A stretch of DNA of 20,062 nt from an uncultured Pseudomonadota bacterium (GTDB lineage Bacteria > Pseudomonadota > Gammaproteobacteria > Burkholderiales > Burkholderiaceae), in contig CAMLIZ010000079.1 in NCBI GenBank assembly GCA_946480245.1, positions 1 to 20,062 of the forward strand, written 5' to 3'. Numbering within the stretch: position 1 is the stretch's first letter; every line of letters starts with the position of its first letter. Below the pieces are notes generated by a model. The model was not told where the DNA came from. It saw nothing but the letters and a program-made list of their open reading frames with translations, and ran no database searches. Position numbers and translations under genes: made by a program. Below, piece by piece: positions 13,825 to 20,062 of the stretch.

Positions 13825-16529
13825 TGCTCGCGCCCAACCTCGTGCTGCTGACCGCGCTGGGCTATGTGGCGCTGCTGTTCACGGTGGCCTTCGTGGGCGA
13901 CCGCCGTGCGCGCCAGGGGCGGCTCGGGTGGCTGCAGTCGCCGGTGGTCTACACGCTGTCGATTTCGATCTACTGCACCTCCTGGACCTTCTACGGCGCG
14001 GTGGGTTCCGCGGCACGCAGCGGGCTGGAGTTCGCAACGATCTACATCGGTCCGACGCTCGTGTTCGTGGGCTGGTGGTTCTTCCTGCGCAAGCTGGTGC
14101 GCATCGGCCAGCTGCACCGCATCACCTCCATCGCAGACCTGATCAGCTCGCGCTACGGCAAGAGCGCGGCACTGGGCGCGCTGGTCACGCTGATCGCGGT
14201 GGCCAGCAGCACGCCCTACATCGCGCTGCAGCTGAAGGCCATGACCAACAGCTTCCAGGTGATCAGCGCCTCGGGGCCCGACTTCCTGCAGGGCATTCCG
14301 AGCGCCCGGCCCAACTTCCAGCTTGCGTTCTGGATCGCTGCGGGCATGGCGCTGTTCACCATCCTGTTCGGCACCCGCAACATCGACGCCAACGAGCGAC
14401 ATCACGGTGTGGTGGCGGCGATCGCGGTGGAGGCGGTGGTCAAGCTGACGGCGCTGGTCACCGTGGGCTTGTTCGTCGTGATCGGCATCGCGGGCGGCCT
14501 GGGCGCGGTGTTCGACCGCATGCCTGCGCAGATGCTGCATGCGCAGGACGGCTTCGGCGCGCGCTGGGTCAGCCTGATCTTCCTGGCGGGCGCGTCCGTG
14601 ATCTGCCTGCCGCGGCAGTTTCAGGTCACGGTGGTGGAGATCGCCGACGAGCGCCACCTGCGCACCGCCTCGTGGCTGTTCCCGCTGTACTTGCTGCTGA
14701 TCAGCCTGTTCGTGCTGCCAATCGCCGTGGCAGGCCTGAGCGTCCTGCCGCGCGGTGCCAACCCGGACATGTTCGTGCTCACGCTGCCGATGTGGGCGGG
14801 GCAGCATGCAGTGGCGCTGTTCGCGTTCCTCGGGGGCTTCTCGTCGGCCACCTCGATGGTGATCGTGGCCTGCATCGCGCTGTCCACGATGGTGTCCAAC
14901 CACATCGTGCTGCCGATCGCGCTGCGCCTTCCGTGGATGCAGCTCAACGCCAGCGGCGAGATGCGGCGCTTCCTGCTGGCCACACGCCGCATCAGCATCT
15001 GCGTGATCCTGCTGCTCGCGTTCCTCTACTTTCGTGTGTCCGGTCGATTCGACGCGCTGGCCTCGATCGGGGTGATCGCGTTCGCCGGCGCGGCGCAACT
15101 GCTGCCATGCCTGATCGGCGGGCTGTTCTGGCGCCAGGCCACGGCGCGCGGAGCCCTGGCCGGCTTGAGTTGCGGCGCGGCGCTGTGGGCCTTCACGCTG
15201 TTCCTGCCCGGCTTTCGCGGTGACCTGCTGCTGTCGGCGCGCGACATCGCGCAAGGACTGTGGGGCCTGTCGCTGCTCAAGCCCTACGCGCTGTTTGGCC
15301 TCGGCGGCATGGATCCGCTGGTGCACTCGATCTTCTGGAGCTTGAGCGCCAACACGCTGGTGTTCGTCAGCGTGTCGCTCGTGGGTGAGCCGCGGCCGCT
15401 GGAGCACCTGCAGAGCACGCTGTTCGTCGACGTGTTCCGCCATCGCGGCGTCGACACCTCGCGCTTCGTCAGCCGCTCCGCCGCGGCCTACGACCTCAAT
15501 GTGCTCGCGCAGCGCCTGATCGGCGTGGACGAGGCGCGGCGCCTCTTCGCGGAGAGCGGCCACAGTCTGGACCTGGAGCCGCATCGCCCGATGGCCAACG
15601 ATGCGCTGATCACCGAACTGGAGCGCAAGCTGGCGGGCAGCGTGGGGGCGGCCACCGCCCGCGCAATGGTTTCGCAGGTGGTCACCGGCGAAACCATCAG
15701 CCTGGAGGAACTGGTGAAGATCGCCGACGAAACGCAGCGCATGCGCGACTACAGCCATCGGCTCGAGCAGCAATCGCAGAAGCTGGCGGCCACTGCCGGC
15801 GAGCTGCAAGTGGCCAATGAGCAGTTGCGTCGCATCGACAGCCAGAAGGACGACTTCCTCAGCCAGGTGAGCCACGAGGTGCGCACTCCGCTCACGTCGA
15901 TCCGTTCGTTCTCGGAAATCCTGCTTGACGCACCGGATCTGCCGCAGACACAGGTGCACCGCTACCTGCAGGTGATCCACGACGAAAGCATTCGCATGAC
16001 GCGCCTGCTCGACGGCATCCTCGACCTGAGCGTGCTCGAGGGCGGTGACGCGCCATGGCTGCTGCAGCCGGTGGATCCTGAGCAGCCTCTGGCGAACGCG
16101 ATCGCCGTGTGCGAGGCGCTGGCCGCCAAAGGCGGGGTGCAGTTGCGGCAGGCACGGCTTGCCGCACCGGTACAGGTGCTCGCCGATGCCGATCGCCTGA
16201 GCCAGGTCTTCATCAACCTGATCTCCAACGCGATCAAGTACAACCGCAGCGCCGCGCCCGAGGTTCGCATCAGCAGCCGGGTCGACGACGGCTGCTACGA
16301 GGTGCTGGTCGACGACAACGGCCCGGGCATCCGCGCGGAGGAGCGCGAGCGCATCTTCCACAAGTTCTCGCGGGGGTGGGCGCAGAGCGAGGCCGCACCT
16401 CAGGGCGCGGGCCTGGGCCTGGCGATCAGCTGGCAGATCGTGCGGCGCCTCGGCGGTTCCTTGAGCCTGCTCGATCGGGCGGGGCCGGGCGCGTGCTTCC
16501 GCGTGCGCCTTGCGCTGCATCGGCCGTAG
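13824..16529 (+). CDS. SLC5 symporter-histidine kinase fusion (CbrA/CrbS-like)
   Basis: A 901-residue inner-membrane protein. Residues 1 to about 520 form a sodium/solute symporter-like domain with about 13 helices (SISIYCTSWTFYGAVGSAAR, ITSIADLISSRYGKSAALG, GFSSATSMVIVACIALSTMV). A STAC-like linker follows (about 535-625: LNVLAQRLIGVDEARRLFAE, GAATARAMVSQVV), then a coiled coil (about 640-675) and an H-box SQVSHEVRTPLTSIRSFSEI with His684. The ATPase domain has an N-box (NLISNAIKYN, 798-807), G1 (DNGPGI, 831-836) and G2 (GAGLGLAIS, 861-869). No PAS domain is seen, unlike CbrA. The ATG overlaps the previous stop. CrbS/CbrA kinases govern acetate or carbon-source responses; substrate sensing through the transporter domain is expected, and the ligand is unknown. 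Confidence 0.92.
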   Translation: MLAPNLVLLTALGYVALLFTVAFVGDRRARQGRLGWLQSPVVYTLSISIYCTSWTFYGAVGSAARSGLEFATIYIGPTLVFVGWWFFLRKLVRIGQLHRITSIADLISSRYGKSAALGALVTLIAVASSTPYIALQLKAMTNSFQVISASGPDFLQGIPSARPNFQLAFWIAAGMALFTILFGTRNIDANERHHGVVAAIAVEAVVKLTALVTVGLFVVIGIAGGLGAVFDRMPAQMLHAQDGFGARWVSLIFLAGASVICLPRQFQVTVVEIADERHLRTASWLFPLYLLLISLFVLPIAVAGLSVLPRGANPDMFVLTLPMWAGQHAVALFAFLGGFSSATSMVIVACIALSTMVSNHIVLPIALRLPWMQLNASGEMRRFLLATRRISICVILLLAFLYFRVSGRFDALASIGVIAFAGAAQLLPCLIGGLFWRQATARGALAGLSCGAALWAFTLFLPGFRGDLLLSARDIAQGLWGLSLLKPYALFGLGGMDPLVHSIFWSLSANTLVFVSVSLVGEPRPLEHLQSTLFVDVFRHRGVDTSRFVSRSAAAYDLNVLAQRLIGVDEARRLFAESGHSLDLEPHRPMANDALITELERKLAGSVGAATARAMVSQVVTGETISLEELVKIADETQRMRDYSHRLEQQSQKLAATAGELQVANEQLRRIDSQKDDFLSQVSHEVRTPLTSIRSFSEILLDAPDLPQTQVHRYLQVIHDESIRMTRLLDGILDLSVLEGGDAPWLLQPVDPEQPLANAIAVCEALAAKGGVQLRQARLAAPVQVLADADRLSQVFINLISNAIKYNRSAAPEVRISSRVDDGCYEVLVDDNGPGIRAEERERIFHKFSRGWAQSEAAPQGAGLGLAISWQIVRRLGGSLSLLDRAGPGACFRVRLALHRP

Positions 16530-16540
16530 CATTCGCACCC

Positions 16541-17602
16541 ATGCAAGCGCTTCTCGTCTACGCCGGCCAGCGAGCCCGGCAGCATCTGCGTGACCATGGC
16601 TTGCGTCCCGAGCATGTGGGCGTGGTGCCTGGCGCCGCCGGCGGCCCCAAGGGGCTGGCGCTGAACCCGATCGACCGGTTCATCTTCGGTCATTGGCTCA
16701 AGCCCGCGCAGCACACGCTGCACCTGCTGGGTGCCTCCATTGGTGCCTGGCGCCTGGCCTGTGCGTGCATGCCCGACCCGGACGCAGCGCTTGCGCGCAT
16801 GGCCCACGACTACATCCACCAGCGCTGGCCTGGTGGTCCGCGTGCGGTGAGCGCAGTGTTTCGCGCCAAGCTCGACGAGCAGTTCGGCGGCCATGAACGG
16901 ACGGTGCTCTCGCACCCGCGCTACCGCCTGCACGTATTCACCAGCCGCGGCCGTCATGCCCTGCTCCGGCGCCAAGGCCGAGTGCGCACGCCGCTGGGCT
17001 ACCTGGGTGCGTTTGCCACCAACGCAGTGAGCCGTCGTGCGATGGGTGCATGGCTGGAGCGCGCGATCTTCTCCGACCCACGCGATCCCCTGCCACTACT
17101 TACACAGGATTTCCGCACGCAGCAGTTCGCGCTCGCGCCCGACAACCTCAGCGCGAGCATCCTGGCCAGCTGCTCGATCCCCTTCTGGCTCGACGCGGTG
17201 CACGACATCCCGGGCGCGCCGCCCGGCGCCTACTGGGACGGTGGCATCACCGACTACCACCTGCATCTGGACTATGCGTCGATGGCCGGCGAAGGGCTGG
17301 TGCTGTACCCGCATTTCCAGCCCCGCGTCGTGCCGGGGTGGCTGGACAAGGGCCTGCACCACCGGCACCGTGCCACCGCACGCCTGGCCAACGTGGTGCT
17401 GCTGGTGCCCAACCCCGAGTGGGTGCGTACGCTGCCCAACGCCAAGCTGCCCGACCGCGGCGACTTCAAGGCCTATGGCGATGATTTCGATGGCCGCGTG
17501 AACGCCTGGGAACGCGCACTCGCCGAAAGCCAGCGCCTGGCCGACGAGTTCGAGACGCTGGTGTCCCGCCCGGGCGGTGTGGATGCACAACTGCTCGCCT
17601 GA
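16541..17602 (+). CDS. Patatin-like phospholipase/acyl hydrolase
   Basis: A 353-residue protein with patatin hallmarks: a glycine-rich oxyanion motif (GAAGGPKGLAL, 31-41), nucleophile Ser66 in Gly-Ala-Ser-Ile-Gly (GASIG) and catalytic Asp233 in the D-G motif (YWDGGITDYH). Together these give a Ser/Asp dyad typical of lipid acyl hydrolases. No signal peptide is seen; the start MQALLVYAGQRAR suggests a cytoplasmic enzyme. ATG 16541 is 11 nt after the kinase stop and has no clear Shine-Dalgarno, so it probably depends on translation of the kinase gene. The substrate is unknown. A small TCGCC-TGA-GGCGA palindrome spans its stop codon; it has no T-run and is not a terminator. The next gene, thrS, has its own leader. 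Confidence 0.88.
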   Translation: MQALLVYAGQRARQHLRDHGLRPEHVGVVPGAAGGPKGLALNPIDRFIFGHWLKPAQHTLHLLGASIGAWRLACACMPDPDAALARMAHDYIHQRWPGGPRAVSAVFRAKLDEQFGGHERTVLSHPRYRLHVFTSRGRHALLRRQGRVRTPLGYLGAFATNAVSRRAMGAWLERAIFSDPRDPLPLLTQDFRTQQFALAPDNLSASILASCSIPFWLDAVHDIPGAPPGAYWDGGITDYHLHLDYASMAGEGLVLYPHFQPRVVPGWLDKGLHHRHRATARLANVVLLVPNPEWVRTLPNAKLPDRGDFKAYGDDFDGRVNAWERALAESQRLADEFETLVSRPGGVDAQLLA

Positions 17603-17647
17603 GGCGACCGGCTTCTGACGCAACCTTTCCCGCTTGACTGCTGCCGC

Positions 17648-17653
17648 TACAAT
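17648..17653 (+). promoter_or_regulatory. Candidate -10 element of the thrS promoter
   Basis: TACAAT (five of six matches to TATAAT) lies 44 nt before the leader-peptide ATG. A TTGACT at 17634-17639 is too close (8 bp) to act as its -35, and at 17 bp upstream only a weak CTTTCC is found. A start near 17660 would give a 37-nt untranslated stretch before the leader peptide. The element is plausible but not certain. Confidence 0.45.
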
Positions 17654-17696
17654 GTCGGTTCCATACTCTCACAAGGGCGAGAAAGGCTGACTGGTT

Positions 17697-17738
17697 ATGA
17701 CACCGCGAACTACGTCGTTCACCACCTTCACAGGTTGA
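17697..17738 (+). CDS. Threonine-rich leader peptide of thrS (13 aa)
   Basis: ATG 17697 opens [13 protein letters not shown] and stops at TGA 17736-17738. Six of 13 residues are threonine, encoded by ACA, ACT, ACG, ACC, ACC and ACA, including two adjacent Thr pairs. GAAAGG at 17681-17686 is a reasonable ribosome-binding site with a 10-nt spacing. The peptide lies 43 nt before an intrinsic terminator and 88 nt before threonyl-tRNA synthetase, the enzyme that charges the tRNA needed to translate it. By analogy with known amino-acid leader peptides (thrL, hisL, pheM) its translation should report tRNA-Thr charging, and the product itself probably has no function. Confidence 0.85.
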
Positions 17739-17808
17739 TCTGACCGCGGCTTGTCACGTCCATAAACGTCTCTCGTTCCTGAAAAGCGCGGTTGCCCACC
17801 GCGCTTTT
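17698..17808 (+). promoter_or_regulatory. thrS transcription attenuator (alternative RNA pairings)
   Basis: Region 1 is 17698-17707 (TGACACCGCG, inside the leader peptide). Region 2 is 17741-17756, region 3 is 17782-17794 and region 4 is 17799-17808. 1:2 forms TGACA/TGTCA plus CCGCG/CGCGG with a 2-nt bulge. 2:3 pairs 17741-17752 with 17784-17794 (11 pairs including wobbles, one bulged G at 17749). 3:4 is the terminator. A ribosome stalled on the Thr codons covers region 1 and leaves region 2 free to form the antiterminator. A ribosome at the stop codon reaches into region 2 and permits termination, and with no translation 1:2 forms and termination also follows. The pairings are visible in the sequence; the regulation is inferred. 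Confidence 0.8.
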
Positions 17809-17815
17809 TCTTTTT
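17782..17815 (+). terminator. Intrinsic terminator in the thrS leader
   Basis: AAAAGCGCGG (17782-17791) pairs perfectly with CCGCGCTTTT (17799-17808) around a 7-nt loop TTGCCCA, and TCTTTTT follows to 17815. It lies before thrS, immediately upstream of its GGAG ribosome-binding site, and after the Thr leader peptide. It is therefore the termination element of the attenuator rather than the end of the patatin gene 180 bp upstream. Confidence 0.9.
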
Positions 17816-17826
17816 GGAGTTCTTCG

Positions 17827-19746
17827 ATGATCACGATCCAGTTGCCCGACGGCTCGCAGCGCGAGTTCCCGCAGCCGCCCACGGTGGGCGAGGTGGCGGC
17901 CGCCATCGGCCCCGGCCTGGCCAAGGCGGCGATCGCCGGCCGCATCGGCCATGGCAAGGAGGCGCGCGTGGTGGACACCAGCCATAGGCTGGAGCGCGAC
18001 ACGCCGCTGGCCATCTTGACGGACAAGGATCCAGAGGGCCTGGAGGTGATCCGCCATTCCACAGCCCACTTGCTCGCCTATGCGGTGAAGGAGCTGTTCC
18101 CGGAGGCGCAGGTCACGATCGGCCCGGTCATCGAGAACGGCTTCTACTACGACTTCGCGTACAAGCGCCCGTTCACGCCCGAGGACCTGTCGGCCATCGA
18201 GGCCAAGATGGCCGAACTGGCGCGCAAGGACGAGAAGGTGGAGCGTCGCGTGCTGCCGCGCGACGAGGCGGTGGCCCACTTCAAGAGCCTGGGCGAGGAG
18301 TACAAGGCCGAGATCATCGGCAGCATCCCGCAGAATGAGGATGTGTCCTTGTATCGCGAAGGCCGCTTCGAGGACTTGTGCCGCGGCCCGCACGTGCCGA
18401 GCACGGGCCGCCTGAAGCACTTCAAGCTGATGAAAGTGGCCGGTGCGTATTGGCGTGGCGATCACCGCAATGAGCAGCTGCAGCGCATCTACGGCACGGC
18501 CTGGGCCACCAAGGACGAGCTGCAACAGTACCTGCGCATGCTGGAGGAGGCCGAGAAGCGCGACCATCGCAAGCTCGGCCGCGAACTGGATCTGTTTCAC
18601 ATCGACGACCACGCTCCCGGCGTGGTGTTCTGGCATCCCAAGGGCTGGGCCGTGTGGCAGGAGGTGGAGCAGTACATGCGGCGCGTATACCGCGACAACG
18701 GCTACCTGGAGGTCAAGGGCCCGCAACTGCTCGACAAGACGCTGTGGGAGAAGACAGGCCACTGGGACAAGTACCGCGAGAACATGTTCACCACGGAGAG
18801 CGAGAAGCGCGACTACGCCCTCAAGCCGATGAACTGCCCGGGGCACATCCTGATCTTCAAGCAGGGCATCAAGAGTTACCGCGACCTGCCGCTGCGCTTC
18901 GGCGAGTTCGGCCAGTGCCATCGCAACGAGCCGACGGGCGGCCTGCACGGCATCATGCGGGTGCGCGGCTTCACTCAGGACGATGGGCACATCTTCTGCA
19001 CGGAGGACCAGATCCTCGGTGAGTGCGTGGCCTACACCGCGCTGCTGCAGAAGGTGTACAGGGACTTCGGCTTCGAGCACATCATCTACAAGGTGGCCAC
19101 GCGGCCGGAAGCGCGCATCGGCTCCGACGAAAGCTGGGACAAGGCCGAGCACGCGCTGGTCGAGAGCCTGCGGCGTTCGGGCGTGGATTTCGAGATTGCG
19201 CCGGGCGACGGCGCGTTCTACGGCCCCAAGATCGAGTACACGCTGAAGGATGCCATCGGCCGGCAATGGCAGTGCGGAACGATGCAGGTCGATTTCTCGA
19301 TGCCCGGCCGCCTGGGTGCCGAATATGTGGCCGAGAGTGGCGAACGCCAGGTGCCGGTGATGCTGCACCGCGCGATCGTCGGCTCGATGGAGCGCTTCAT
19401 CGGCATTCTGGTCGAGCAGCACGCGGGCGCCTTGCCGGTATGGCTGGCGCCGGTGCAGGTGGTGGTGACGAGCATCACGGACGGCCAGCACGACTATGTA
19501 TCCGAAGTGGCGAAACTGCTTCAAAAACAAGGAGTTAGAGTGCAGGCCGATTTGCGCCATGAGAAAATCACGTATAAAATCCGCGAGCATTCTTTGCAAA
19601 AGGTTCCGTTCATCCTTGTCGTGGGTGACAAGGAGAAGGCAAGCGGGGCCGTTGCGGTGCGCGCCCGGGGCAACCAGGATCTCGGGGTGATGCCGGTCGA
19701 CGCCTTCACCGAGAAGCTCGCCGCCGACATCGCCGCCAAGGTTTAA
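17827..19746 (+). CDS. thrS: Threonyl-tRNA synthetase
   Basis: A 639-residue class II aminoacyl-tRNA synthetase that charges tRNA-Thr in the cytoplasm; the length is normal. Domains: N-terminal TGS (1-63); an editing domain with the zinc-like site His77/His81 (HSTAH) and Cys185/His189 (CRGPH), which hydrolyses Ser-tRNA-Thr; a class II core with motif 1 around [15 protein letters not shown] (270-284), motif 2 [18 protein letters not shown] (358-375) and motif 3 ([13 protein letters not shown], 514-526); and a C-terminal anticodon-binding domain (about 538-637). The catalytic zinc ligands Cys337, His388 and His514 are present. ATG 17827 has GGAG at 17816-17819. Expression is probably controlled by the attenuator in its leader, and infC follows by 70 bp as in other proteobacteria. 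Confidence 0.99.
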
Positions 19747-19803: not shown

Positions 19804-19819
19804 AAAGGTTCACACCATC
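19804..19819 (+). promoter_or_regulatory. infC ribosome-binding site with AUC start codon
   Basis: AAAGG (19804-19808) lies 8 nt before ATC 19817-19819. The infC frame is closed by TGA at 19802-19804, and the codons between (AAG GTT CAC ACC) include no ATG, GTG or TTG, so AUC must start the conserved N-terminus. E. coli infC uses AUU. Such rare starts are discriminated against by IF3 and give autoregulation. Confidence 0.85.
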
Positions 19820-20062
19820 GCTACTTTTGCTGACCGTCGCATTCCCAACGTGGAGCGCAAGCACCGCTTGAATCGCGAGATCACCGCGCTGCAGGTGCGC
19901 CTGAACGGCCCCGACAACGAGCCTCTGGGCATCGTTAGCTTGCAGGAAGCGCTGCAGATGGCGGGCGAGCGGGACGTTGATCTGGTCGAGATTGCCGCTC
20001 AGGCCGATCCGCCGGTGTGCCGGCTGATGGACTACGGCAAGTTCAAGTACCAGGAGCAGAAG
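19817..20062 (+). CDS. infC: Translation initiation factor IF-3 (partial, 5' end)
   Basis: The first 82 codons are present and the gene runs off the right edge. The protein, read from AUC as Met, begins [20 protein letters not shown] and contains the IF-3 N-terminal hallmarks [22 protein letters not shown] and [16 protein letters not shown], which leads into the linker helix. IF-3 binds the 30S subunit, prevents 50S joining and checks the start codon. It follows thrS as in the standard thrS-infC-rpmI-rplT operon. The 70-bp gap after thrS shows no terminator, so co-transcription is likely; a separate promoter cannot be excluded. Confidence 0.98.

Follow-up and report, generated by a model that had tools for sequence, protein, structure and literature searches.

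In Escherichia coli, pheST is controlled by an attenuator with a Phe-rich leader peptide. Thr_leader (RF00506) is the attenuator of thrABC; it acts on biosynthesis genes and senses Ile in addition to Thr. E. coli thrS is under translational control by an operator that mimics tRNA. Attenuation in aminoacyl-tRNA synthetase operons was reportedly surveyed by Lopatovskaya et al. in 2010, and this survey may contain a thrS case. Leader-peptide attenuation is an already known kind of control, synthetase genes included (PMC1262725, PMC2965389), and the available parts of these sources describe it for pheST in gamma-proteobacteria (PMC1262725) and for hisS in bacilli (PMC2965389). The accessible text of other reports assigns thrS of Bacillota to T-boxes (PMC12452182) and contains the proposal that thrL, located before thrS in Streptomyces lividans, is a threonine-dependent leader, a weak one (PMC8079986). 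A description of a leader-peptide attenuator for thrS in Proteobacteria was not found among the matches listed from the partly available open-access literature.

We analyzed a window of 20,062 nucleotides (the whole stretch of DNA presented above), in which a short Thr-rich frame and a hairpin with a T-run precede thrS (Table 1). This element is very probably a ribosome-mediated transcription attenuator of the trp/his/pheST type that responds to the charging of Thr tRNA. The initial annotation had proposed an attenuator of this kind for thrS, and the conserved frame, the synonymous variation of its Thr codons, the computed switch, and the dependence of the 2:3 pairing on its own partner all support that reading. 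The leader and hairpin, which occur ahead of thrS in many Burkholderiales, most likely raise the production of the synthetase when charged Thr tRNA is short.

Similar to E. coli pheST, a leader rich in the cognate residue and alternative hairpins are followed by a synthetase gene; however, the residue is Phe in pheST and Thr here, and the lineage and sequence differ. Thr_leader has the same Thr-rich leader peptide and terminator/antiterminator logic, but differs in its target genes and in its additional signal, and the thrS leader had no Rfam match. The E. coli operator and the Bacillota T-boxes act on the same gene with the same physiological input, whereas leader translation and termination are proposed here, and no T-box was matched. 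As far as the available text goes, hisS of bacilli is also a synthetase gene under leader-peptide attenuation, but it is another gene in another phylum. S. lividans thrL, too, places Thr codons in a short frame ahead of thrS; however, it has 18 residues with two Thr on a leaderless transcript, shows no clear terminator according to its authors, and was described in one Actinobacteria genome (PMC8079986, in the part available). In the Rfam comparison that the initial annotation had suggested, no family reached its gathering score in the window, and Thr_leader and T-box were unmatched in positions 17580–17860 even at E values up to 10. The near-hits ncS54, ncS025, and STnc420 were rejected with scores far below gathering; two near-hits cover little beyond the terminator, and ncS025 spans 17721–17813.

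Table 1. Positions of the leader elements and thrS in the window
Feature	Position	Strand	Basis
Putative −10-like TACAAT of the likely leader promoter	17648..17653	+	Read from sequence
Shine-Dalgarno AGAAAGG of the leader peptide, 10 nt before the leader ATG	17680..17686	+	Read from sequence
Leader peptide frame, 13 codons, 6 Thr	17697..17738	+	Sequence, relatives, mini-ORF enrichment
Region 1, TGACACCGCG, within the leader codons	17698..17707	+	Minimum-energy fold, duplex test
Region 2, right after the leader stop codon; partner of region 1 or 3	17742..17756	+	Fold, duplex tests
Region 3, AAGCGCGGTT, terminator 5′ arm and its edge	17784..17793	+	Terminator scan, duplex test
Region 4, terminator 3′ arm	17798..17809	+	Stem 17781–17809, 12 pairs, loop 5
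T-run TTTTTCTTTTT of the intrinsic terminator, TTTTT-C-TTTTT	17805..17815	+	Sequence, terminator scan
Shine-Dalgarno GGAG of thrS	17816..17819	+	Read from sequence
thrS, threonyl-tRNA synthetase, 639 aa, ATG at 17827	17827..19746	+	ORF, Pfam

The thrS product of the window contains the four ThrRS Pfam domains TGS, tRNA_SAD, tRNA-synt_2b, and HGTP_anticodon. The leader frame (ATG ACA CCG CGA ACT ACG TCG TTC ACC ACC TTC ACA GGT TGA) uses all four ACN codons for its Thr residues, and both this codon usage and the 13-codon frame with its Shine-Dalgarno sequence had been recognized in the initial annotation. The frame is enriched in codons for the amino acid of the downstream synthetase, and we infer that it is translated. 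A perfect 10-bp stem with a T-tail had also been described; the hairpin and T-run hold, and the stem length was slightly underestimated (12 pairs around a 5-nt loop). The end of the hairpin is only 17 nt from the thrS ATG, and these 17 nt contain the T-run and the ribosome site; thrS transcription should, therefore, have to cross the hairpin. The Shine-Dalgarno sequence of thrS falls outside the hairpin. A terminator scan of the window found one terminator against 0.8 expected by chance. Taken alone, the window sequence gives modest evidence, and it is the conservation tests described below that raise the observation above chance. On the two sides of these features, the frame 5′ of the leader (16109–17602) has a patatin-like domain at 26.9 bits against a curated cut-off of 27.7, and the stretch after thrS (19817–20062) reads by eye as infC with an ATC start codon. 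ATC is an atypical start codon that is usual for IF3.

The leader was searched for in 80 related thrS loci and the window (81 loci) by its core Met-Thr-Pro-Arg-Thr (MTPRT), with every synonymous codon permitted. The core precedes thrS in 56 of the 81 loci, which affirms the conservation of a short Thr-rich frame upstream of this gene, and its carriers include Roseateles, Rubrivivax, Methylibium, Leptothrix, Hydrogenophaga, Acidovorax, Delftia, Ramlibacter, Rhodoferax, Comamonas, and an Oxalobacteraceae genome. Among the 25 loci that lack the core are six Limnohabitans and two Polaromonas, single loci of Rhodoferax, Extensimonas, Malikia, Serpentinimonas, and Ottowia, and MAGs. Among them, L076 has the variant leader MTLRTTFTEG; in L051, the start codon was lost and the core had decayed as well (one case). 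The script found a hairpin with a T-run in 21 of these 25 loci, including L039 and L078, whose hairpins, at 93 and 86 nt upstream of thrS, could be part of the preceding gene. The pattern that the initial annotation had named as evidence against an attenuator, a terminator kept where the Thr frame is lost, was thus seen in part, in these coreless loci.

Seven Limnohabitans and related loci (L036, L040, L045, L056, L058, L061, and L068) have no leader peptide and a very short 5′ leader with TANAAT at 69–74 nt; they keep a GCGCGG hairpin and T-run approximately 40 nt upstream of thrS. L054 lies on a MAG contig labelled Chitinophaga pinensis; its thrS resembles those of Comamonadaceae (77% to the window) and has the leader, and the bin is probably mislabelled.

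A pattern search of 250 order genomes, which fixes a 5-nt spacer and misses leaders with a 6-nt spacer, gave 10 exact core matches and, in 17 further genomes, 18 three-mismatch matches; no match had one or two mismatches. The reversed control pattern gave 22 (hand tally). thrS was located within 330 nt downstream of all 10 exact matches and of none of the 18 three-mismatch matches. In the set of 70 MTPRT leaders, a terminator was identified by script between leader and gene in 68, with that of L072 mis-picked and that of L030 partial (−5.7 kcal/mol). Hairpin and thrS were separated by at most 25 nt in 33 of 68 leaders (median, 26 nt). In L165, a stretch with TTTTTTGTTTTTAGCGCGGCGG is partially repeated in tandem between the leader and thrS, within the last 200 nt before the gene.

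The leader transcript is estimated to start near 17660. TANAAT occurs 90 to 25 nt 5′ of the leader ATG in 41 of the 70 leaders, 31 of these at 48–52 nt, and TACAAT of the window is 49 nt before the ATG. A sigma-70 scan of the window found no site, and we consider its −35 element to be weak for this reason. Conservation among the 70 leaders reaches 72–94% at positions −15 to −11 relative to the leader ATG.

Thr accounts for 138 of the 577 residues after MTPRT in the 70 leaders (24%; shuffled mean, 42), and for 7/507 (1.4%) and 16/507 (3.2%) in the other two frames. Residue 6 is Thr in 46 of 70 leaders and is spelled with all four ACN codons (16/9/20/1), and the Thr codons, therefore, vary synonymously across relatives. 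A mini-ORF test was run for each amino acid, with an upstream ATG frame of 7–25 codons counted when it contained at least three, and at least 25%, of that residue. The order and class sampled are those to which G001, the genome of L001 (Roseateles terrae), is assigned. The order sample consisted of upstream DNA from 90 of 200 genomes, the 30 best matches and 60 taken by hand down the ranking, and L111, from the genome of L001, was left out (89 genomes). The class sample consisted of 60 of 143 genomes from the top of the ranking, with G001 and G053 as well as G274, G340, and G362 (matches too near the contig end) removed.

A Thr-rich upstream mini-ORF was present in 26 of the 89 order genomes against 0.2 expected from shuffles, and Thr was by far the most enriched residue; the same genomes gave Arg 13 vs 4.5, Val 3 vs 1.0, and Lys 2 vs 0.3, and the remaining residues were near expectation. 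Without the 14 MTPRT genomes, the Thr count was 18 of 75, with frames such as MPRTRTTTGFFSRRG, MFRTRTTTQR, MSFRTTTTGTLYLG, MRPPTTLQGKTR, and MLKTDTTTLMISG. Candidate leaders were found in 40 of the 89 genomes when 8 Arg-Thr CGAAC frames below the cut-off were counted. In the 60 class genomes, Thr-rich mini-ORFs numbered 3 against 0.5 expected and Arg-Thr CGAAC frames 0; the leader device, therefore, looks largely confined to the order. These counts bear on the explanation that the leader acts without sensing Thr, through generally slowed translation or through coupling and reinitiation. The rare codons CGA and ACT are nearly invariant, and 15 of the 70 leaders have only the two Thr of the core and none beyond, as a general slowdown would allow; however, Thr and no other residue is strongly enriched beside the gene for the Thr-tRNA synthetase, also in the families without the core, and we regard this explanation as unlikely.

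As an attenuator, the element would work as follows. Transcription would begin near the estimated start, and a ribosome would translate the Thr-rich leader. When charged Thr tRNA is short, the ribosome would stall on the Thr codons and cover region 1, leaving region 2 free to pair with the terminator 5′ arm, and RNA polymerase would continue into thrS. When charging is adequate, the ribosome would reach the stop codon and cover region 2, the 3:4 terminator would form, and transcription would end near 17815. If the leader is not translated, the 1:2 pairing would likewise free the terminator.

The switch was measured as the pairing of the terminator 5′ arm before the 3′ arm exists, at simulated ribosome positions. 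It was computed for 67 of the 70 leaders; L032 and L060 (no terminator by script, although one with a longer loop is visible by eye in L060) and the mis-picked L072 were left out, and L030 was kept. Mean 5′-arm pairing was 0.80 with the ribosome at codon 6, 0.52 at the stop codon, and 0.56 with no ribosome. Shuffling the spacer removed most of the difference (0.67 stalled, 0.61 at stop); the Wilcoxon p-values against spacer shuffles (2e-8 for the level and 6e-9 for the difference) count related sequences as independent and are optimistic. Pairing was higher in the stalled state than at the stop codon in 59 of the 67 leaders, as classic attenuation predicts, and not in 8. The earlier claim that ribosome spacing fits mutually exclusive hairpins is thereby borne out in simulation, beyond spacer shuffles. 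The window itself gave 0.81 stalled, 0.43 at stop, and 0.27 with no ribosome, and fractions of 0.02 and 0.14 of its spacer shuffles equalled the stall-minus-stop difference and the stalled level, respectively. Of the 28 leaders chosen from those without the core, 25 were computed (the script assigned no terminator to L121 or L157, and the spacer of L124 was too short; L168 was kept, although its terminator is clearly mis-picked). Their means were 0.67 stalled and 0.44 at stop, with the predicted direction in 20 of 25 (p 0.001, optimistic for the same relatedness) and not in 5; leaders such as L189, L194, L200, and L138 spell their antiterminators differently.

Both pairings of the initial annotation (17698–17707 with 17745–17756 and 17741–17752 with 17784–17794) were recovered in the window with small shifts. 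The 1:2 pairing is in the minimum-energy fold (17698–17707 with 17745–17749 and 17752–17756; z −2.34, 3/200 shuffles as good), and the 2:3 pairing joins 17742–17752 to 17784–17793 with one G bulged (duplex, −14.4 kcal/mol). In 52 of 67 leaders (hand count), the start of the best region 2 partner falls in the interval −5 to +10 bases relative to the stop codon end, and a ribosome at the stop would, therefore, cover region 2. In 23 loci with long spacers, this partner beats the terminator-proximal spacer by a mean of 6.5 kcal/mol. RNAalifold on a MAFFT alignment of the 67 leaders recovered the 3:4 helix and neither 1:2 nor 2:3 because the spacers align poorly, and dependence on the partner was subsequently tested by swapping duplex arms. 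The 2:3 duplex was better than the mean shuffle in 50 of 67 leaders (p 1e-7), and 41 of 67 leaders paired better with their own arm than, on average, with the arms of others (p 3e-4; both p-values are optimistic for the same relatedness); arm permutations equalled the real pairing in 0/5000, and in 85/5000 after thinning to 37 leaders. Region 1:2 duplexes were better than shuffled ones in 44 of 67 core leaders and 18 of 25 others, with 240/5000 and 173/5000 in the respective swap tests, a modest excess over chance across relatives. Of the pairs for which the initial annotation had called for covariation, 2:3 shows dependence on its own partner, 1:2 has modest support, and 3:4 is the one that RNAalifold recovered. 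In the model, the 2:3 antiterminator is exclusive with the terminator and gated by ribosome position.

We also considered that ThrRS may repress its own mRNA through a tRNA-like operator, as in E. coli, with the frame incidental and the core serving as the binding site. The core is common to all 70 MTPRT leaders, and a system of this type exists for the same gene in E. coli; however, Thr is enriched in one frame only and with synonymous variation, other leader families have Thr codons without the core, and a terminator with a T-run and a ribosome-gated antiterminator are foreign to that mechanism, which makes it quite improbable here. A reading in which the frame is the gene of an independently acting small protein, the hairpin is its terminator, and thrS is driven from another promoter would suit the high conservation of MTPRT and the promoter room in some relatives (60–97 nt between hairpin and thrS), but is highly improbable given the 17-nt gap in the window and leaders of 10–22 residues that vary after residue 5 apart from Thr.

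Within the attenuator reading, the invariance of the core needs an explanation of its own. The core GTTATGACACCGCG[A/G]AC is common to 70/70 MTPRT leaders. The strict pattern used for this set builds in codon invariance; however, the searches that allowed all synonyms did not, and they found only ACA-CCG-CG[A/G]-AC[T/G] (56/56 and 11/11). The Arg codon is CGA in 65 of 70 leaders and CGG in 5, against 124 CGA among 3241 Arg codons when the initial 1,900 nt of 80 thrS genes are counted, and the following Thr codon is ACT in 64 of 70. Arg-Thr also occurs in 11 of 18 leaders without the core chosen by Thr richness alone, 10 of the 11 with CGA; of the 19 non-core Arg-Thr leaders, all except L157 also have CGAAC. 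Two other leader families (MTPLT and MRPPT) have CTG-ACT or CCG-ACT at the same place, which speaks against an essential role of CGA. Pairing alone was rejected as the cause of the invariance because just 29 of 70 core leaders have GTTCG, which is complementary to CGAAC, in the interval from stop to thrS, and 5 of 17 other leaders have it downstream of CGAAC (in L148, the CGAAC taken by the script is not part of the leader). The idea of a tRNA-anticodon mimic at GGTT was abandoned, since the nucleotide 5′ of GG is not constant (T in 61%). The nucleotide invariance of the core exceeds what peptide coding and pairing together account for.

The tRNA-Arg that decodes CGA contains inosine, and the I-A wobble pair that results is an awkward one. 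We speculate, with considerable doubt, that the rare pair CGA-ACT, and not the number of Thr codons, is the fixed decoding device by which the leader senses Thr-tRNA; once CGA occupied the P site, the ribosome would be poised to pause at the Thr codon that follows. If true, this device would explain why families that otherwise share little retain CGA-ACT at the nucleotide level, and why two Thr seem enough in 15 of 70 leaders. The near-invariant CGA-ACT makes a codon-level stall device directly testable.

The neighborhood of thrS may indicate how the attenuator arose. By pattern, 57 of the 89 order genomes and 31 of the 60 class genomes have a tRNA-Val(GAC) gene in the 400–500 nt 5′ of thrS (e.g., L189:248–324, L159:254–330, L162:357–433, and L211:331–407), and ARAGORN confirmed it in 9/9 loci scanned; no tRNA gene was found in the window. 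Where a tRNA arm was recognized, 44 of 58 order loci and 17 of 31 class loci have a hairpin and T-run in the interval from the tRNA to thrS. The gene seems to be an old neighbor of thrS, widespread in the class sample. Rmet_R0015 of Cupriavidus metallidurans may be the tRNA-Val gene. In the available part of the source, the mapped thrS start of this species carries that RNA gene locus tag (PMC9045368), which fits thrS transcription from a tRNA promoter there. Based on the tRNA-Val neighborhood and the intervening hairpins, the attenuator may have arisen within the order between the old tRNA gene and thrS, and the hairpin behind the tRNA-Val gene may have been recruited for it.

Two other controls of thrS are known, the operator of E. 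coli and the T-boxes of Bacillota. A third, widely conserved in Burkholderiales, would make this gene a clean case of regulatory replacement.
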